38,682 nucleotides of DNA from Acidobacteriota bacterium (GCA_003222635.1 QHWQ01000096.1:1-38682); one strand, 5' to 3'. Numbered from the stretch's first letter, positions 14,277-23,092 are shown. Program-made: numbers and translations. The notes: generated by a model from the sequence alone, not told the origin.

Positions 14277-15837
14277 GGCGGTGGGGTCCGGCTTTAGCCG
14301 GACCTTACTCGTGATTGTCCTCGCCGTTGCGCCCGACGTGTCCGCGCAGACGTCGAACGCCGCGAAACTGCTGCGCGAGGCGGAAGGACGCGAATCCGCG
14401 CTGCGCATGGCGATCGACACGCGCAAGGCCGGCTCCCCCGCCACTCCCCTCCTCGAGCGCGCGCGGACGCTCATCAAGGCGTACGAGGACATCTCGCGTC
14501 TCTTTCCGACCAGCCCGTACAGCGACGATGCGCTGTGGCATGGCGGACTGCTGGCGGCGGACGCGTTCTGGGAGTTCGGACAGGCGGACGAGCGCACAAC
14601 GGCGCTTCGTCTTCTGAAGCTTGTTCCCGCCCGGTTTCCGACGAGCTCGCTCGTGAAGCAGGTCGGCCCGTTAGTGGATCGCCTCAACGCGGCGAGAGTC
14701 GTCGTCGAGCAGACGATGCCGAAGCAGCCGACCGTCATGCTCAAGGCGATTCGCCGCGAGGCACTGCCCGGTGCGATGCGGGTGACACTGGAGCTCGAGG
14801 GCGAAGCGCCGTATCACGACGAAGAGATTGATGGTCCGCCGCGCGTGTTCCTCGACCTGCAGAACACCCGGCCGGCCGTCGCATTGAAGGACGTGACGCA
14901 GACATTCCCGGACGATCTCGTGCGCCAGATCCGCGTCGGCCGTCAGATCGGCACACGCACCAGGGTCGTCCTCGATTTGACGAACGCCGCGCCGCACACG
15001 ACCTACGCGCTCTACAACCCGTATCGCGTCGTCATCGACTTCGCGCGCGAGGCACCGGCGCCGGTCGTCGCCGCGCCCGTTCCGAGCGAGCCGAAACCGA
15101 ATGGCGCCGGCGGGTTTTCCCTTTCACGTCAGCTCGGCCTGGGCATCGGACGCATCGTGATCGATCCCGGCCATGGCGGCCACGATCCCGGCGCGATGAA
15201 CGACGGCCTCAGCGAAGCCGACCTCGTCCTCGATGTTGCGCTTCGGCTCGAGAAACTGCTCCAGCAACATCCCGGCGTTCAAGTGGTGATGACGCGGCGA
15301 TCGAACGTATTCGTTCCGCTCGAAGAGCGAACCGCGATCGCAAATCGCGAGGGCGCCGATCTGTTCCTGTCGATCCACGCCAACGCCAGCGAAGACGACC
15401 GCGCGCGCGGAATCGAAACCTATTTCCTCAACTTCGCGCCGAACCCGGCGGCGGAAGCCATTGCGGCCCGCGAGAACGCCGCCTCGGCCCGCACCATGCG
15501 CCAGCTCCCCGACATCGTCAAAGCCATCGCGCTCAACAACAAGATCGACGAGTCGCGCGACTTCGCGTCGCTCGTCCAGTCCTCGATGATGGACCGGCTG
15601 AAGCGATCCAATAAGAGCGTGAAGGATCTCGGCGTAAAGCAGGCGCCGTTCATGGTCCTCATCGGCGCCACCATGCCGAGCATCCTGGCCGAGATTTCCT
15701 TCCTCACCAACCGCCCGGAGGCGACGCTGCTTCGCGGCGGCGCCTATCGCCAGCAGATCGCGGAGGCGCTTCTCAACGGCGTGATGCGCTACCAGCGGTC
15801 GCTGAAAGCCGCGACGCAAACGATCGCCTCGCAATAG
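14260..15837 (+). CDS. N-acetylmuramoyl-L-alanine amidase with AMIN domain
   Basis: Zinc amidase that cuts the bond between MurNAc and the stem peptide, usually during cell separation. The protein is 525 residues from the ATG at 14260, which overlaps ftsK by 17 bp and has AGGAGG just upstream. A signal peptide (to about SAQT) is followed by a helical segment. An AMIN-type beta domain comes next (about residues 145-265, including PPRVFLDLQNTRPAV and RTRVVLDLTNAAPHTTY). The Amidase_3 domain has zinc ligands and catalytic residues H305 (IDPGHGGHDPG), E319, H373 (SIHANAS) and E478 (AEISFLTN). The signal-peptide residues SGFSRT are encoded by a REP-like palindrome. Pairing with ftsK fits a division role. 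Confidence 0.93.
   Translation: MRNCARAVGSGFSRTLLVIVLAVAPDVSAQTSNAAKLLREAEGRESALRMAIDTRKAGSPATPLLERARTLIKAYEDISRLFPTSPYSDDALWHGGLLAADAFWEFGQADERTTALRLLKLVPARFPTSSLVKQVGPLVDRLNAARVVVEQTMPKQPTVMLKAIRREALPGAMRVTLELEGEAPYHDEEIDGPPRVFLDLQNTRPAVALKDVTQTFPDDLVRQIRVGRQIGTRTRVVLDLTNAAPHTTYALYNPYRVVIDFAREAPAPVVAAPVPSEPKPNGAGGFSLSRQLGLGIGRIVIDPGHGGHDPGAMNDGLSEADLVLDVALRLEKLLQQHPGVQVVMTRRSNVFVPLEERTAIANREGADLFLSIHANASEDDRARGIETYFLNFAPNPAAEAIAARENAASARTMRQLPDIVKAIALNNKIDESRDFASLVQSSMMDRLKRSNKSVKDLGVKQAPFMVLIGATMPSILAEISFLTNRPEATLLRGGAYRQQIAEALLNGVMRYQRSLKAATQTIASQ
14286..14303. repeat. REP-like palindrome inside the amidase signal-peptide codons
   Basis: Perfect hairpin GTCCGGCT-TT-AGCCGGAC, the left-half type of the family. 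It lies nine codons into the amidase gene and is read as SGFSRT. The flanking CTACCG stem is not preserved, so this is a solitary half. Confidence 0.85.
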
Positions 15838-15851
15838 CCCGCGCAGCATCT

Positions 15852-17528
15852 TCACCGCGCGAGGTGGAACGCGCCATCGACGCCGAGCGACGACACCGGG
15901 ATGGACGTCGCCTCCGCGCCGTCCATCGGGAACGTCCAGCCGACGAGCGGCAGCGACGCGAACATCCGCTCGAAGGCCGGCAACGGCTCCGGCGCCGCGA
16001 AGATCAGGAAGTGCTCGCGGCCGCCCACGCTGGTCACGGTCCAATACAGCGGCGTCTTACCTCCCGCCGGCAACCTGACCGGATTGCCCGCCGGGATCGG
16101 ATTGGCGATCTTCTGATTCGGCAGCGGGAACAGCAGGTAGGACTCGCCGTTGTCGTCTTCGTTGACGATGTAGACGTGCGCGGGCTTGGACACTTGAATT
16201 TGCAGCATCAGACGGTCGCCCGGCGCGACGCGATCGCCCGGCCGAAGCTTCGCCGAACGAGCGCCTGACACGCGATAGAGGCCGGCGTCGATGCTGTAGG
16301 TCGCGGCGCTTGCTGTGGGCGCCGCGGCGGCCGGCGATACGGCGGCCGCAACGGTCGGCGGTGCCGCGGGAGCCGTCCATGCACGCGTCGCAAGCCAGTA
16401 CGCCGGTGCGCCGATCACGATCCCCGCGATGATCGCGGCGACCGCCAGCGAGAGGGTACGCGGCGAATCGGGGATCTCTTCGTAGGGCGTTCCAAGAAAG
16501 CTCGCCAGCGCGCGCTCGAACGCGCCCGCGCTCTGAAACCGCTGATGCGGATCCAGATCCAGCGCACGCTCGATCACGCTCACGAACTCGTCCGGCAGCT
16601 CCGGCCGCAGATCGCGCAGATGCGTGCGGATGTCTTTGCCATGCGCCTCGTCGATCGCCGCTCGCGTCTCGCCTTCGACCGGATAGCGGTTCGTGACGAG
16701 ATGGAACAGCAGGACGCCCAGGCTGTAGACATCCGCGGCCTTCGTGCGCCGCGCGCCCGCGAACACCTCCGGGGCCACATACAGGGGTGTGCCGGCGAAG
16801 TCGGCGATCCCGCCGGTGGACGCGCGCAGGATGTCCTGACCGAGATCCTTACCGGCGCCGAAGTCCATGAGGACGGTGCGGCCGCCCTCCTCGCGCATCA
16901 CGTTGTGGGCTTTGATGTCGCCGTGCAGGAGACCGGCGCGATGCACGGCCGCGACCGCGCGGCACAGATCCAGACCGATGTTGGCGGCCTCGCGCGCGCC
17001 GAACATCCCCTGCCGCTGCAGCAGATCTTCGAGCGTGGTTCCGCGCACCAGCTCCATCCACAGGCCGACGCGCCCTTCCACCTGATCGGCGCCGTAGACG
17101 GTGACGACGTTGGTGTGGCGCACGCGTGCCAGCAGGCGGGCTTCCTTGAGCACGCGTGAGACGTTGGACGGGCCGTCGTCGTGGCGCATCAGCTTCAGCG
17201 CGATGTCGCACTGCAGCTTGGTGTCATGGGCCCGGTAGACATCGCCGAACGAGCCGCCGCCGATACGGCCGAGGATCAGGAAGTGCGCCCAGGTGCGCGG
17301 CTCGGAGTCGCGTCGATCGTCGGGATCGACGGTTGTTTCGTTGCTCGGGTTGCTCTCCAGCGCCTCCTGATGAAACTGCGCGATCTTTTCCAGCACCCGC
17401 AGCTCGTCGAGGACCCCGCTCTCGTTGCTGGCGACCTTCCCCGCGAGCTGTTCCCACTCGATCAGCGCACCGTCGCTGATCGAGGAGGCGACCGTGTCCA
17501 GCACGTTCGTGTCACGACCGTCTGACAA
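15852..17528 (-). CDS. Membrane Ser/Thr protein kinase with C-terminal DUF4384-like domain
   Basis: Hanks-type kinase of 558 residues. The N-terminal leader is acidic and helical. The kinase domain (about 83-345) has the glycine loop GRIGGGSFGDVY, ATP-binding lysine K112 (ALKLM), the catalytic loop HGDIKAHNV with D204, DFG at 222-224, and APE at 252-254. All catalytic residues are intact, though the loop reads HGD where RD kinases have HRD. One membrane helix (about 360-381) and an alanine/proline linker lead to an outer domain resembling DUF4384 (ISRVSGARSAK... region with VYIVNEDDNGESYLLFP). The start is TTG, overlapping the sigma-factor gene by 17 bp. The overlap suggests that the kinase acts on, or with, that sigma factor. 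Confidence 0.9.
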   Translation of the reverse strand: MSDGRDTNVLDTVASSISDGALIEWEQLAGKVASNESGVLDELRVLEKIAQFHQEALESNPSNETTVDPDDRRDSEPRTWAHFLILGRIGGGSFGDVYRAHDTKLQCDIALKLMRHDDGPSNVSRVLKEARLLARVRHTNVVTVYGADQVEGRVGLWMELVRGTTLEDLLQRQGMFGAREAANIGLDLCRAVAAVHRAGLLHGDIKAHNVMREEGGRTVLMDFGAGKDLGQDILRASTGGIADFAGTPLYVAPEVFAGARRTKAADVYSLGVLLFHLVTNRYPVEGETRAAIDEAHGKDIRTHLRDLRPELPDEFVSVIERALDLDPHQRFQSAGAFERALASFLGTPYEEIPDSPRTLSLAVAAIIAGIVIGAPAYWLATRAWTAPAAPPTVAAAVSPAAAAPTASAATYSIDAGLYRVSGARSAKLRPGDRVAPGDRLMLQIQVSKPAHVYIVNEDDNGESYLLFPLPNQKIANPIPAGNPVRLPAGGKTPLYWTVTSVGGREHFLIFAAPEPLPAFERMFASLPLVGWTFPMDGAEATSIPVSSLGVDGAFHLAR

Positions 17529-18177
17529 TGGCCATCTCTTTCGCGAGCTTGACGAGCGCGCGGCTTACCGCGACGTGCGCGGCCGCGACCGTCGGTTTTC
17601 CGAGCGCGCGCGCCACCTCTGGATAGGAATATCCAAGCTCGATGCGGGCAATGATCGCCTCGCGATCCGGCGCCTTCAGGCGCAGCAGGGCCGCCTCGTA
17701 GCGCTCGCGCGCCTGGACGCCGATGGCCAGCTCGAAGGGCGACGGCCCCTCGTCCGGACGGTCGGAGGCGAGCGCGTCGGTCGGCCGGCGTTTGGCCCAG
17801 CGGATCTGATCGCAGATCCGGTTGTGCAGCGAGGTGCGGAGGAACGCCTGGAAGGCGCCGTCATGCCGCGGCTCGAACGTGCCGAGGCGCTGCACGACCT
17901 GCGCGAGGGTCTCTTGCACGATGTCGACCGTCTCCATCGCGCCGGCGCGCGCCCACTGTGGCAGGCGGCCATGCGCCCATTTCTGGAGGCGCGGGAGGTA
18001 GCGGGTGCACAGGTCGTTGAGCGCGAGCTCGTCGCCGGCCCGGGCGCGGGCGAGCAACTCCACGGACGTCAAGGCGTTGGTCACCTTGATCGGCGCCGCC
18101 TTTCGAGAGCCCGTGCGTGAAGACACGTAGTCGGCCATGAACGAACCCGGCGCGAATGTCAGAGTTGTGGCGCTCAT
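17512..18177 (-). CDS. ECF-type RNA polymerase sigma factor
   Basis: A 221-residue sigma-70 family protein with only regions 2 and 4. Region 2 is LLARARAGDELALNDLCTRYLPRLQKWAHG through DIVQETLAQVVQRLGTFEP to AFLRTSLHNRICDQIRWAKRR (residues about 41-130). Region 4 is LLRLKAPDREAIIARIELGYSYPEVARALGKPTVAAAHVAVSRALVKLAKEM (about 165-215). In region 2.2, T83 and V84 (METVDIVQET) occupy the site where many ECF factors carry acidic residues. No anti-sigma factor gene adjoins it; a Ser/Thr kinase overlaps its end instead. AGGAG lies ten bases before the ATG, inside the palindrome ACAGGA-AC-TCCTGT (18181-18194). The next ATG is at codon 14. Likely targets are its own operon and the divergent protease operon, by inference. 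Confidence 0.88.
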   Translation of the reverse strand: MSATTLTFAPGSFMADYVSSRTGSRKAAPIKVTNALTSVELLARARAGDELALNDLCTRYLPRLQKWAHGRLPQWARAGAMETVDIVQETLAQVVQRLGTFEPRHDGAFQAFLRTSLHNRICDQIRWAKRRPTDALASDRPDEGPSPFELAIGVQARERYEAALLRLKAPDREAIIARIELGYSYPEVARALGKPTVAAAHVAVSRALVKLAKEMAIVRRS

Positions 18178-18406
18178 GATACAGGAACTCCTGTCTGAGG
18201 TGGGTTGCTGCCATCCCTAACGTCGGCCAGCGGCATTCCTAACACCCCCTCTCCGACACCCTGTAAGAACGCTCCGCGAAGGCCGTTTATTGAATGCAAG
18301 AACGTAATCGGTTGGGGTGTGCCGTGCTAGACTCCGCGGCCTACCCGTCACAACCGATTCGTCGTTCGTCCGCGCTTGTCCGACTCGGCGTCGTTGAAGG
18401 AGGCCT
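18178..18406. promoter_or_regulatory. Divergent control region between sigma factor and protease operon
   Basis: This 229-bp gap must hold promoters for both directions. Read on the minus strand it has two copies of GTTAGGNATG (plus-strand positions 18212-18221 and 18234-18243), starting exactly 22 bp apart, about two helical turns. Rightward, a TAGACT box is present at 18328-18333 but I find no good -35 partner. The SD-spanning palindrome at 18181-18194 belongs to the sigma-factor leader. The exact promoters remain unassigned. Confidence 0.45.
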
Positions 18407-19576
18407 ATGGCGAACCGACCCTGGACTGTTCTCGTGTACATCGTCGCTGACGACGATCGACAACCGGGTGCGGGGCACCCGTCGTTGAACAAGATCGCGG
18501 CCGCTCAGATCGCCGAGCTCTCGAAGACGGCTCGCGAAATGAAGGGACAACCGCTTGTCCTCACCCAGGTCGACTTCACCAACGCTCGTCCGAAGCAGTG
18601 CGTGTTCCCGGACGACTCCTCTGCTGACGCGGCCCGCATCTGTACACCGATTGAAAAGGAGCCGAATTCGGCGAGTCGACGGACCATCGGTGACTTCTTC
18701 AAGTGGGCGGCCGGAGTGCTTCGCGAAAAGGGCATCCAGAACAGCAGGTTTGCGGTCATCTTCTGGGGGCATGCCGCGGGGCCTGCCGGCCTGTTCCGCG
18801 ATCCGGCTCCGGCGAGCACGAATCCTTCGTTGAAGTTGCCCGACCTGAGACGCGCGCTGCAGGACGGTCTGCAATATCTCGGCGCGCGATATTTCGACGT
18901 GGTGATGTTCCAGGACTGCTGGACGAGCTCGCTCGAGGTCGTCTACGAACTGAAGGACGTCGCACGCTACATGGTTGCGTCGCAGGAGATCATCGCGCCG
19001 ATCGAAAAGATCTGGCCGTACACGCTCCTGTTTGAAGAGCTCCTCAAGCCAACATCTCCAAGTCTCGAGATGCTCGACGCGATCGTGGGCCGTCTCGCCG
19101 ATCAGTACGAGAGAAAGATTGCCTTCAGCGGTCTCACGCTGGACGCAGCACCGGGCCTCGCTCTTCCGCTCGCGCGCCTGACCGCCGCCTTGCAGTCGTT
19201 GACGGACGACGAGCGCGAGGCGAGCCGACGGATGATGAGGGAGATGGCCGGTGGCGATCCCGCTCTCATCGACGTTCGCGCGTTCTGCAAGCGGCTGCGC
19301 GATGCGGACATCGTGAAGCAGCAGGCGCTTGCTCTCGAACGCGTCGCCAACACGCTGGTTCGAGCCAGCACCGCGCAAGACGGATCGGGCCTAAGGGGTG
19401 TCAGCCTTTTCCACAGTCCGCCGGATAACGAACGAGACAAGGACGAGAAGAAATCCGTGTTCGCTGATTCAGTGCTGATGTTCGATTACAACGAACTTCA
19501 GCTGAGCGAAGACACAGAAGGTGCCGGAGCAAACTGGAGCGAGGTTGCGTTCGAGAACCGATTCGTCGTCGTGTGA
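18407..19576 (+). CDS. C11-family (clostripain-like) cysteine peptidase
   Basis: A 389-residue clan CD (caspase-fold) protease. The start WTVLVYIVADDD matches the first strand of the C11 family. The catalytic histidine is H122 in FAVIFWGHAAG, and the catalytic cysteine is C171 in FDVVMFQDCWTSSLEVVYEL, equivalent to the WGHG and DACLM-type motifs of clostripain relatives. No signal peptide or membrane segment is visible, so a cytoplasmic location is likely. The C-terminal part (about 210-389) contains helices and ends with an acidic tail. A good ribosome-binding site (AAGGAGG) precedes the ATG. It is the first gene of the rightward operon opposite the sigma/kinase pair, followed by a small protein and a TPR-CHAT protein. 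C11 enzymes commonly cleave after arginine or lysine, but the target here is unknown. Confidence 0.86.
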   Translation: MANRPWTVLVYIVADDDRQPGAGHPSLNKIAAAQIAELSKTAREMKGQPLVLTQVDFTNARPKQCVFPDDSSADAARICTPIEKEPNSASRRTIGDFFKWAAGVLREKGIQNSRFAVIFWGHAAGPAGLFRDPAPASTNPSLKLPDLRRALQDGLQYLGARYFDVVMFQDCWTSSLEVVYELKDVARYMVASQEIIAPIEKIWPYTLLFEELLKPTSPSLEMLDAIVGRLADQYERKIAFSGLTLDAAPGLALPLARLTAALQSLTDDEREASRRMMREMAGGDPALIDVRAFCKRLRDADIVKQQALALERVANTLVRASTAQDGSGLRGVSLFHSPPDNERDKDEKKSVFADSVLMFDYNELQLSEDTEGAGANWSEVAFENRFVVV

Positions 19577-19609
19577 GGTTTTGTCGTTTATCAAAGACGG
19601 GAGGGCTGT

Positions 19610-19774
19610 ATGGCCGTGGATCCGAAAACAGGTGGTCTTGGCATTCCGCCGAAGGCATTAAACGAGCTGGCCGATGCGTTCACGGTGATCGCCAAAATCT
19701 TCAGGAAAATCGCGGCGGAGCAACCGTCACCCGAAGAGGCTCCGGTAGGCGCTGGCCTCAAGAAGCATCCGTAG
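19610..19774 (+). CDS. 54-residue small protein between two caspase-fold proteases
   Basis: A short open frame not resembling any family I know. A GGGAGGG ribosome-binding site lies six bases before the ATG, and the gap after the C11 gene is 33 bases. The peptide begins MAVDPKTGGLGIPPKAL. It has one probable amphipathic helix (residues about 15-36, ELADAFTVIAKIFRKIA) and an acidic, proline-containing tail ending in LKKHP. There is no cysteine and no signal peptide. Codon use is in keeping with its neighbours, and the stop is 21 bases before the CHAT gene start. Position suggests a partner, inhibitor or substrate of one of the proteases. Its lysines and arginines (for example in IFRKIA) would be candidate C11 sites. 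This role is inference only. Confidence 0.7.
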   Translation: MAVDPKTGGLGIPPKALNELADAFTVIAKIFRKIAAEQPSPEEAPVGAGLKKHP

Positions 19775-19795
19775 CGTCATGACCGAGGCGTGCAG

Positions 19796-22700
19796 ATGAC
19801 GCGACCGCGTGCCGTCCTGCGTGCCTCGATTGTCCTCCTCTCGATCTGGGTTTCCCCGGAACAGGCAGCTCCCCAGGGCGACTGCGATCGTGCAAGCACT
19901 ACAGCGATCTTGCAGTGCCTCCTCGAGAATGGCCGGTACGCGGAAGCCGAGGATACGGCACGCCGCTGGCGTGCATCGGTCACCCAGCAGTTTGGAAACG
20001 AATCGGTAGACACCGCTGAAGTCTCGGATTACCTCGTGAAGGCGCTCGTCGGGGGAGGAAAAGGGGGACAGCCCGCGACGCTCGCGCTCGCTGATTCCGC
20101 CGTCAAGATAAGGATACGTCTACGATCCGGGACATCGTCATTGGACGTGTCGCTCGACAACCTGGCGACGGTGTACGTCGAGCATACCTTGGACGGCCTT
20201 GCGCAAGCACTCCTTTCCCAGGAACGTTTCAATGAGGCAAAGAGCGCCCTTGAGCGTTCCCGAACCATTCGTGAACGTAAGAAGAGCTCGTTGCCCGCGC
20301 TCGCACGAACGCTGGCCCTCACAGCGTTGCTCCACAAATACGACGGCCAGTACGCGACAGGCCTCGGCCTCACCGAAAATGCGCTGACACTCCTGAACGC
20401 TGCGGGCCCCCTCCACCCGCATCGATCGACCACGCTGCAAATTCGCGGCGATCTCCTTTTTCTGTCAGGCGACATTGCTGGTGCCGAACGTGCGTGGACC
20501 GATGCCCTTGACGTCGCGCAACGCACGGTGGGCCTGGAACATCCGCTCACGCTGCTGCTCATGCGTGAGCTGGCAGCCTCGGCCAAGGCGGCCGGGAATT
20601 TGCCGCGCGCACGGCAACTGCTCGAAACGGTGGCAGGCCTCGCGAAATCCGCTCTGGCGCGATGTCACCCGGAAACAACCTACGAGTTGAACGACCTGGC
20701 GAATCTGCTCGAGTACGACGGCGACTATCGGCGTTCACGGGCGCTCTACACGGAAGCGCTGTCCATCTCCGAAGAGTGTTTCGGCCGCAGTCATTCGCAA
20801 ACCGCGACGATCGTCCACAACCAGGCAGTCCTGTCGCTGACCACAGGCGATTACGCCGAAGCTCAGCGACTCGAACAACGTGCCCTGCGCATATGGTCGA
20901 CGAATCTCGGCGCCAGGCATCCGTACATCGCGCGTGTCCTGGACGTGCTGGCGGAGATCGCATCCGCGAGAGGAGATGTCGCGGCCGCGGAGAACTTCTA
21001 TAAGCGAGCCCTGGCCATCCGGCAGAAAGCCGGCGGCCCGGATTCTCCCGACGTCGCGTGGACGCTCACCAACCTGGCAACGGTCGCATACGCGGCGGGC
21101 CAGACACGCGTCGCTCTGGATCGCGTCAATGCGGCCACGGCCATCTACGACCGGAACGTGGGCGAGCAGCCTGACCATCGCGCTAACGCCTTTGTGCTTC
21201 GCGGCAAGGCGCTCTTGCGGCGTGGCGAATTCCCGCCGGCGCGCGACAGCTTCAACAGCGCGATAAATGAACGGACCCGCGTCTTCGGAGCGGCACATCC
21301 GCTCACCGCAAGCGCCCGCGCCGATCTCGCGCTCAGCGAGTTCGCTCTCGGATCCGTCAACACTGGCGCTGAGGATGCGCTCGCAGCGGAGCAGGTCGGC
21401 CGCGATCAACTGCGCTTCACGATCCGGTACATGCCGGAGCGTCAGGCGATGGCGTATGCGGCCGCGCGGCCGCGCGGTCTCGATCTGGCGCTGTCGATGG
21501 CAGTCGTTGAGCGATCCCTCGATCCCGCGCGTCTGCTGGACGCTGCAATCCGATCACGCGGTGTCATTCTTGACGAACTCGCGGGAAGAGCTCAATCCGC
21601 CTCTGGTGGCGGGGACCCAGCGCTGGCAGTGCTCGATACCGCCGTGCTCGCGGCCCGCCAGCGATTCGCCACGTTAATGGTGCGCAGTCTCGACGGCGCC
21701 GATGCCGCATCCACGCGGCTTCTCGAGGACGCTCGCCAACAGAAGGAGGATGCGGAGCGGGCGCTCGCGGAACGGAGCGCTGCGGCGAGGGAAGAAACGC
21801 AGCGTGCACAGATCGGGCTCGACGAGGTGCGACGTGCGCTGCCTGCCGGGTCAGCCCTCGTGTCCTTTGTCCGATACGAACGCACGTCGGTCCTGATGCG
21901 ATCGTCACGTCCCACAGTCACGACGAGTGCGTCATACGCAGCCTTCATCACACGTGCGGAGAGCGACGAGGTCCGCTTCATCCCGCTCGGCTCCGCTTCA
22001 TCGCTCGAGCGTCTCGTCGACGCGTGGCGCGCCGAGGCCGGCGGACGCTCGATCGCGACTGGCCTGACGCCGCGCGACGCGGAGCGACGGTACCGAGCGG
22101 CTGCGGCGGCGCTGCGCGCCCGCATCTGGGATCCGCTCGACGCATCATTGGCAGGCGCAACGCGAATCTTCATCGTCCCGGACGCCTCGTTGAATCTCGT
22201 CACCTTCGCCGCGTTTCCCGCGGCGCGTGGCTATCTCGTGGAAACCGGCGTAAGCCTTCACTACCTGACGACGGAACGTGATCTCGTTCGCACGTCCGGA
22301 CCGTCTGGACAGGGACTGCTTGCGCTCGGCGGCCCGTCGTTCGGTGGTGAGACGACAACGCCGCCAGCCGCGGCGGCTCGCGGCTCTGGCTGCGGATCCA
22401 TCGGATCGCTCCACTTTGACGATCTGCCCGGGACCCGCGCCGAAGTGCACGATATCGCGAGCATCTGGGGTAATCCACGCGACGTCGTCGTGCTGAGTGG
22501 CCGCGCCGCAACCAAAGCCGCGCTCACCAGCGCCATCGCGGGGCATCGCGTTGTGCATCTCGCCACGCACGGCTTCTTTCTTAGACCCGAGTGCGAGGCT
22601 GCCCTTCCCACGACGCGTGGTGTCGGAGGTCTCATCAGCGGACGCGCACCCGCAGCCGTCGACAATCCGCTGCTGCTCTCGGGACTTGCTCTCGCCGGAG

Positions 22701-23092
22701 TCAATGCGCTGTCGGGGGCGCGCCAAAGCGACGGCATCCTCAACGCCGAAGAGATCGCCGGACTCAACCTGCAGGGCACCGAGTGGGCGGTCTTGTCCGC
22801 GTGCGACACGGGACTCGGTCAGATCACGGCGGGCGAAGGCGTGTTCGGTCTCCGCCGGGCGCTGCAAATTGCCGGCGTGCACACCATCATCATGAGCCTC
22901 TGGTCAGTCGAAGATCAGGCGACGCGCGAGTGGATGAAGGCGCTTTACGAAGCGCGCCTCGCGCAACGCCTCGACACGCCCGGCGCCGTGCGCGCAGCGA
23001 GCCTGCAGACGCTCCGGCAGCGGCGCGCGAAGGGCCAGAGCACGCATCCGTTCTACTGGGCCGCGTTCGTCGCCGCCGGTGACTGGCGCTAG
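19796..23092 (+). CDS. Exported TPR-CHAT protein (caspase-fold peptidase)
   Basis: A 1098-residue protein with three parts. An N-terminal signal-peptide-like stretch (MTRPRAVLRASIVLLSIWVS, then AAPQG) predicts export. About 600 residues of tetratricopeptide repeats follow, partly of the 42-residue kinesin-light-chain type (for example SPDVAWTLTNLATVAYAAG). After a coiled-coil-like A/E/R-rich segment (about 625-680) comes the C-terminal CHAT domain (about 790-1098). Its catalytic pair is H925 (VVHLATHGFF) and C1003 (VLSACDTGLG), with GEGVFGLRRALQIAGV after it. The ATG at 19796 has GAGG seven bases upstream; a GTG two codons earlier is poorly placed. CHAT proteins are peptidases of the caspase clan, often activated through their repeat domain. 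The gene ends the operon and overlaps a minus-strand gene by 4 bp. Confidence 0.92.
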   Translation: MTRPRAVLRASIVLLSIWVSPEQAAPQGDCDRASTTAILQCLLENGRYAEAEDTARRWRASVTQQFGNESVDTAEVSDYLVKALVGGGKGGQPATLALADSAVKIRIRLRSGTSSLDVSLDNLATVYVEHTLDGLAQALLSQERFNEAKSALERSRTIRERKKSSLPALARTLALTALLHKYDGQYATGLGLTENALTLLNAAGPLHPHRSTTLQIRGDLLFLSGDIAGAERAWTDALDVAQRTVGLEHPLTLLLMRELAASAKAAGNLPRARQLLETVAGLAKSALARCHPETTYELNDLANLLEYDGDYRRSRALYTEALSISEECFGRSHSQTATIVHNQAVLSLTTGDYAEAQRLEQRALRIWSTNLGARHPYIARVLDVLAEIASARGDVAAAENFYKRALAIRQKAGGPDSPDVAWTLTNLATVAYAAGQTRVALDRVNAATAIYDRNVGEQPDHRANAFVLRGKALLRRGEFPPARDSFNSAINERTRVFGAAHPLTASARADLALSEFALGSVNTGAEDALAAEQVGRDQLRFTIRYMPERQAMAYAAARPRGLDLALSMAVVERSLDPARLLDAAIRSRGVILDELAGRAQSASGGGDPALAVLDTAVLAARQRFATLMVRSLDGADAASTRLLEDARQQKEDAERALAERSAAAREETQRAQIGLDEVRRALPAGSALVSFVRYERTSVLMRSSRPTVTTSASYAAFITRAESDEVRFIPLGSASSLERLVDAWRAEAGGRSIATGLTPRDAERRYRAAAAALRARIWDPLDASLAGATRIFIVPDASLNLVTFAAFPAARGYLVETGVSLHYLTTERDLVRTSGPSGQGLLALGGPSFGGETTTPPAAAARGSGCGSIGSLHFDDLPGTRAEVHDIASIWGNPRDVVVLSGRAATKAALTSAIAGHRVVHLATHGFFLRPECEAALPTTRGVGGLISGRAPAAVDNPLLLSGLALAGVNALSGARQSDGILNAEEIAGLNLQGTEWAVLSACDTGLGQITAGEGVFGLRRALQIAGVHTIIMSLWSVEDQATREWMKALYEARLAQRLDTPGAVRAASLQTLRQRRAKGQSTHPFYWAAFVAAGDWR

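Follow-up and report, generated by a model that had tools for sequence, protein, structure and literature searches.

To our knowledge, substrates and signals have been identified for few of the bacterial relatives of caspases and separase. In RRNPP quorum sensing, peptides of 5–10 residues are cut from a secreted precursor, and the TPR receptors are encoded next door. In the type III-E Craspase (Cas7-11/Csx29/Csx30/CASP-sigma), a TPR-CHAT protein works with an ECF sigma factor (PMC10028731), and conflict systems of the caspase/EACC/TRADD-N kind bring together caspase-fold effectors, variable sensor parts and an ECF sigma gene (PMC8195603). Among C11 peptidases, fragipain, and the doripains with BcpT, cut after Arg and thereby activate a partner protein (PMC9308784). 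An Asp in the S1 pocket of PmC11 is held responsible for its basic (Arg/Lys) specificity, and C11 enzymes self-process at Lys/Arg (PMC4850288). ECF43 sigma factors, which form pairs with Hanks kinases (EcfP-PknT and EcfK-PknS), have lost the acidic residues (DxxD) of sigma2.2 (PMC13147305, PMC8999054).

Here we describe a five-gene unit from an Acidobacteriota bacterium (GCA_003222635.1 QHWQ01000096.1:1-38682; this whole stretch of 38,682 nucleotides is called the window). Like Craspase, the unit combines an ECF-type sigma factor with a TPR-CHAT protease at a single locus, and its CHAT protein has a fold match to Csx29; it differs in its predicted exported CHAT protein, its second protease, C11, and its kinase. 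No Cas7-11 or Csx30 candidate was seen inside the bounded five-gene insertion, as judged from its five genes, and the window sigma factor scored 24.7 bits against the CASP-sigma model, whose cut-off is 100. The ECF43 pairs also have a sigma gene adjoining a transmembrane Ser/Thr kinase gene, with no anti-sigma gene, but the window group keeps D/E-T-x-D-L/I-VQ in sigma2.2 whereas ECF43 factors lack the acidic residues. We rejected ECF43 membership of the window sigma factor for this reason (its motif is ETVDIVQE), so that activation by the proven ECF43 phospho-switch cannot be assumed for it. As with fragipain and the doripains, a C11 enzyme may act as the activator of a partner protein; those C11 enzymes stand alone at the surface, whereas in relatives of the window the C11 protein bears a peptide array of its own and is partnered by CHAT. 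In relatives, short peptide arrays and TPRs are encoded together, an arrangement reminiscent of RRNPP systems, although the window has no array; the candidate receptor would be an exported TPR-CHAT protease, and the precursor would itself be a protease carrying many copies of the peptide. Caspase-fold effectors, variable parts and an ECF sigma gene also link the unit to the caspase/EACC/TRADD-N systems, whose description (PMC8195603) does not mention clostripain and in which the C11–CHAT pairing was not found. PADLOC models gave only generic kinase domain matches to the window genes.

All five open reading frames described in a sequence-only reading of this DNA were recovered, with their domains and catalytic pairs (Table 1). 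The ECF sigma factor and transmembrane Ser/Thr kinase were confirmed by Pfam (PF00069, 5.7e-45, and DUF4384, 1.6e-11, for the kinase); their genes overlap by 17 bp (17512-17528), and a divergent gap of 229 bp (18178-18406) separates them from the C11 gene. The C11 protein matched Peptidase_C11 (Pfam, 9.6e-18) and, by profile, clostripain (9cip, 6e-25), and the TPR-CHAT protein matched CHAT (Pfam, 7.7e-63) and many TPRs. Both His/Cys pairs were intact: H122/C171 of C11 in an alignment, and H925/C1003 of CHAT counted from the ATG at 19796 (H927/C1005 from the GTG at 19790). The CHAT His and Cys were invariant among 30 aligned sequences. No convincing terminator was found across the region.

Table 1. 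Features of the five-gene unit, in window coordinates.
Feature	Coordinates	Strand	Basis or remark
Ser/Thr kinase of Hanks type with a single TM segment and DUF4384 at the C-terminus	15852..17528	-	Pfam
ECF sigma factor, sigma2.2 motif ETVDIVQE	17512..18177	-	Pfam regions 2 and 4, alignment
GCTAGACT, promoter-like octamer upstream of C11	18326..18333	+	Identical in 4/6 loci
C11 (clostripain-family) cysteine peptidase	18407..19576	+	H122, C171, Gln169; lacks both a signal peptide and a C-terminal array
54-aa small protein, amphipathic helix LNELADAFTVIAKIFRKI	19610..19774	+	Sits in peptide-array position
TPR-CHAT signal-like N-terminus and TPR half	19790..21424	+	In exchanged cassette
CHAT peptidase domain, His/Cys intact, constant part	22097..23092	+	Pfam, alignment, model
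Entire five-gene insertion	15838..23088		From amidase stop to stop of convergent 89-aa gene

The borders of the unit were visible in relatives that lack it. On the left an amidase gene ends at 15837, on the right an 89-aa gene and an aminopeptidase gene run from 23089, and exactly five genes lie between the amidase and 89-aa genes in the window. In five relatives (G003, G005, G008, G012 and G046) the amidase and 89-aa/aminopeptidase genes are directly adjacent and convergent, and the site is empty; in G012, where the junction was read at single-base level, the amidase and 89-aa genes lie about 12 bp apart. Because the flanking genes directly adjoin in relatives and five genes intervene in the window, the kinase, sigma factor, C11, small protein and TPR-CHAT genes form one block that was gained or lost together. 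The coupling of these genes proposed from the sequence alone is supported in so far as all five occupy, as one unit, a site that is otherwise empty in relatives. Other genes fill the amidase/aminopeptidase junction in G002 (one unrelated 155-aa gene, in the same genus as the window) and in G014 (several genes; L239 and L238 are loci of this insertion site), so the junction may be an insertion hot spot.

Conserved adjacency across genera had been named beforehand as a test of the unit. A profile of the sigma factor gave 133 places in 162 genomes of the order, of which about the best 60 were read with their flanks. Six matches exceeded 265 bits (the window, G031, G035, G027, G007 and G120). They come from five genera and two families within a single acidobacterial order, and the kinase–sigma pair faces C11 and TPR-CHAT in 6/6 of them; two of these loci lie in Acidobacteriota KLAP208 (L159, which is locus L058) and RH-27jun17-225 (L162, L059). 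Among the same roughly 60 best places, none of the matches at or below 265 bits had C11 or CHAT within five genes. The window kinase is 47–55% identical to its counterparts.

The protease pair extends further than the sigma–kinase pair. A C11 profile found 39 carriers among 396 genomes of the phylum, and in all loci read a CHAT gene lay downstream on the same strand for 25 of 52 C11 genes; these 25 pairs reach other families of the phylum. In distant families the CHAT gene is followed by different sigma-like and anti-sigma-like genes, so the protease pair is the core and the transcription switch an exchangeable part. TPR-CHAT relatives in other phyla had no C11 neighbour, and the C11 profile gave two matches in 26 genomes, most of other phyla, one of them in a giant repeat-domain protein and the other without a readable open reading frame. 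At L118, L120, L121, L129, L132, L144 and L026, a weakly recognisable sigma-70-like gene and then a membrane anti-sigma-like gene follow CHAT, with a STAS-like gene also present after CHAT in L026 and L129. L145 encodes two giant C11 proteins in tandem (1415 and 1422 aa).

Comparison of two loci from one genus, G031 and G027, revealed which parts are exchanged. From the kinase to GCTAGACT, just before C11, the two share 86% DNA identity; no DNA similarity was found over C11, the small ORF or tail, or the TPR half; and 83% identity resumes at about codon 765 of CHAT. Read from the DNA, C11, peptide and TPR half have evidently been swapped as a cassette, with promoter, sigma factor, kinase and CHAT catalytic domain staying in place. 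The C11 proteins of the six sigma–kinase loci fall in four or more places of the C11 tree. L058 and L026, which belong to different families, have C11 proteins with 45% identity, though the repeat unit differs. GC3 of the window kinase (0.855) and sigma factor (0.865) compares with 0.864 for the neighbourhood and is lower in C11 (0.75), the small ORF (0.655) and the TPR half (0.72). Across 23 pairs, C11 distances tracked TPR-half distances (partial r 0.57, p 0.0005) but did not track CHAT-domain distances (0.01); linkage of adjacent DNA could alone explain this co-inheritance.

We found that 16 of the 25 C11-with-CHAT proteins contain tandem arrays of 5–11-residue peptides, towards the C-terminus in most, counting as arrays only tandem repeats beyond those of every shuffle. 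Such arrays occurred in 7/571 other proteins (p 5e-20) and 6/27 other C11 proteins (p 0.004), and nine of the 25 pairs had no detectable array. Units include YVPPYSK, DFPELGTK, EGGPYSGK, FTPPYVK, NNPPWSK, VPPYDVDNK, SRYTDR, SKFGPR and RFADFG. Lys or Arg is present in each unit of 22 arrays, one acidic low-complexity stretch (L143) excepted, against 2.9e-5 expected by composition, a figure that is only a guide because the arrays are partly related by descent. The S1 Asp is kept in 19/22 array-bearing C11 proteins, and a conserved [KR]N motif (KN-P) comes after many of the arrays. Between units of one array, pS ranged from 0.2 to 0.9 and pN from 0 to 0.19, with pN/pS mostly 0 to 0.1. Because synonymous sites vary widely while amino acids hardly change, the unit peptide is evidently held constant by selection inside an array, and it differs between genomes; for the same reason slippage noise was rejected as the cause of the arrays. 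L151 and L152 have nearly identical C11 genes with different arrays. In L118 the C11 has no array and an upstream 812-aa neighbour has Arg-bearing repeats (ESSRDEFARGESSRSEFARG). Array-bearing C11 proteins without a downstream CHAT occur at L122:8251-10143, L124, L126 and L130 (LAGQEGSK, LGGSGSSTR/K), with a divergent kinase-like gene adjoining in L122 and L126. Near sigma–kinase loci, a 455-aa (L103) and a 521-aa protein (L065) carry NIVWGEN or NDDDGGLVWGT tandem repeats.

The window C11 itself has no array, and the 54-aa amphipathic protein stands in the array's place. Its ORF has a good ribosome site (GGGAGGG, 19599-19605) and matches the CHAT gene in codon usage (0.140 versus 0.138 per codon), and the amphipathicity of its best 18-residue helix was beaten by just 3 of 1000 shuffles. 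It had no Pfam match and no recognisable homologue, the sequence search giving noise only (best E 0.036). Two relatives, L024 and L025, have a small ORF in the equal position: the L024 protein has a TM-like segment, and that of L025, whose codon pattern is coding, is an array in the form of a separate small protein. The small protein singled out earlier as a possible regulator therefore marks a real and important slot, since in relatives this slot, or the C11 tail fused to it, is an array of short Lys/Arg peptides.

The window C11 belongs to a different branch of the C11 tree from its five counterparts. It groups with C11 proteins adjoining C14 caspases, several of them fused to nSTAND1 or DUF7379, and Gln169 takes the position of the S1 Asp, two before the Cys, leaving the protein without the residue that marks Arg/Lys specificity in family C11. 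A single-sequence scan of the genome contigs with the window C11 found no relative, and a C11 structure model built from three sequences was too poor for use (pLDDT 43). At L015-L023, where the second C11 branch adjoins C14 caspases, a small Lys-rich ORF (KKTAKKAAK repeats) often lies beside C11.

A hydrophobic signal-like N-terminal stretch was present in nearly all CHAT partners and absent from C11 proteins. C11 thus looks cytosolic and CHAT exported, which makes direct cleavage of one protease by the other unlikely; this possibility, raised in the sequence-only reading, was not borne out, and we dropped direct CHAT processing by C11 as the main model. The model of the window TPR-CHAT protein (pLDDT 85) resembles separase, Csx29 (Foldseek, E about 2e-11) and the anti-sigma factor DdvA, as well as the peptide-holding TPR domains of kinesin light chain and APPBP2; these fold matches are resemblances, not tests.

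Control of the C11 operon by the sigma factor had also been proposed. The promoters lent this little support: the 8-bp GCTAGACT recurs in four of the six, a match that is suggestive at most, since two loci are closely related, and a search of the region found no sigma-70 consensus promoter. The sigma2.2 motif reads D/E-T-x-D-L/I-V-Q-E/D in all six sigma–kinase loci, and the conserved Thr, Thr83, is a candidate phosphorylation site for the kinase. Overall, the sequence-only reading held as to one unit, conserved adjacency and the small-protein slot, and found no support as to sigma control and the processing of one protease by the other; it did not include the peptide arrays, the cassette exchange or the odd branch of the window C11.

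We favour, at a probability of about 0.38, a reading in which a sigma-controlled C11 would release short peptides (in the window, perhaps the 54-aa protein) that are recognised by a matching TPR domain. The membrane kinase would use its outer DUF4384 domain to sense an event at the envelope, and would switch on the sigma factor, which would raise transcription from the divergent promoter. Cytosolic C11 would cut after Lys/Arg, either in its own tail or in the small protein, and free short peptides. Their matching receptor would be the exported TPR domain encoded by the adjacent gene, and binding would either activate the CHAT protease at the envelope or restrain it. Since C11 has no signal and CHAT has one, the peptides would need an exporter across the membrane. 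Against this reading, the window C11 has neither array nor S1 Asp. Because the 54-aa protein replaces the array and this C11 comes from a branch with an altered specificity pocket, the 54-aa protein is itself likely to be the substrate or effector in the window. More tentatively, the loci might form a new bacterial peptide-recognition class in which C11 carries a hypervariable multicopy peptide, self-released at Lys/Arg under sigma control and read by the co-inherited TPR of an exported CHAT protein, with C11, peptide and TPR exchanged as a specificity cassette, like self/non-self recognition systems.

The main rival to peptide release and recognition is inducible self-destruction or defence without a message, which we consider possible but doubtful. 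Infection or envelope damage would lead the sigma factor to raise C11, a membrane-active small protein or tail would be cleaved, and CHAT would attack envelope proteins until the cell dies, the arrays being multi-site activation linkers. This would suit the membrane-prone slot proteins of two loci (the amphipathic helix of the window and the TM-like segment of L024), the place that the window's C11 branch otherwise has beside caspases typical of conflict systems (C14-nSTAND and C14-DUF7379), and the action of TPR-CHAT with an ECF sigma factor in Craspase (PMC10028731). However, no PADLOC defence family matches C11, the small protein or CHAT, and a mere linker leaves unexplained why units are constant inside an array and differ between genomes. 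The array could also be an autoinhibitory or timing tail: C11 would begin by digesting its own repeats, and the end of the tail ([KR]N motif) would tether the enzyme to a partner until cut. The mostly C-terminal placement, the KN-P motif that follows many arrays, the Lys/Arg in each unit and the known self-processing of C11 at Lys/Arg (PMC4850288) agree with such a tail, but the array is a separate protein in L025 and is carried by a neighbouring gene in L118, and we regard this explanation as unlikely.

Less probable still is regulation as in Craspase, with a caspase-fold protease cleaving a sigma regulator and thereby controlling transcription. TPR-CHAT and an ECF sigma factor do share one locus, the fold is similar to that of Csx29, and distant loci have sigma and anti-sigma-like genes after CHAT; yet no Cas7-11, Csx30 or CRISPR neighbour was seen, CHAT is predicted to be exported, and the window has a kinase and no anti-sigma gene. 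That the genes adjoin by chance, or form a housekeeping pair with no shared function, is very improbable: TPR-CHAT relatives of other phyla do lack a C11 neighbour, but 6/6 conservation, unit insertion, cassette exchange and C11–TPR co-inheritance contradict this explanation.

Both the parts and the underlying logic, in which caspase-fold proteases go with a sigma factor, are already known. The C11-array-TPR-CHAT combination is apparently new: among the open-licence papers searched, none combined a C11 peptidase with a CHAT domain or described such a design. In peptide release and recognition as we propose it, a candidate substrate is written into the genome as identical short peptides with a predicted cut site and a candidate TPR receptor adjoining. 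Because the candidate substrate is encoded beside the candidate receptor, substrate, receptor and specificity exchange can be tested directly, using synthetic peptides and purified proteins. Acidobacteriota are abundant, little-studied soil bacteria; if our reading is true, they would have a peptide-based recognition or death system.
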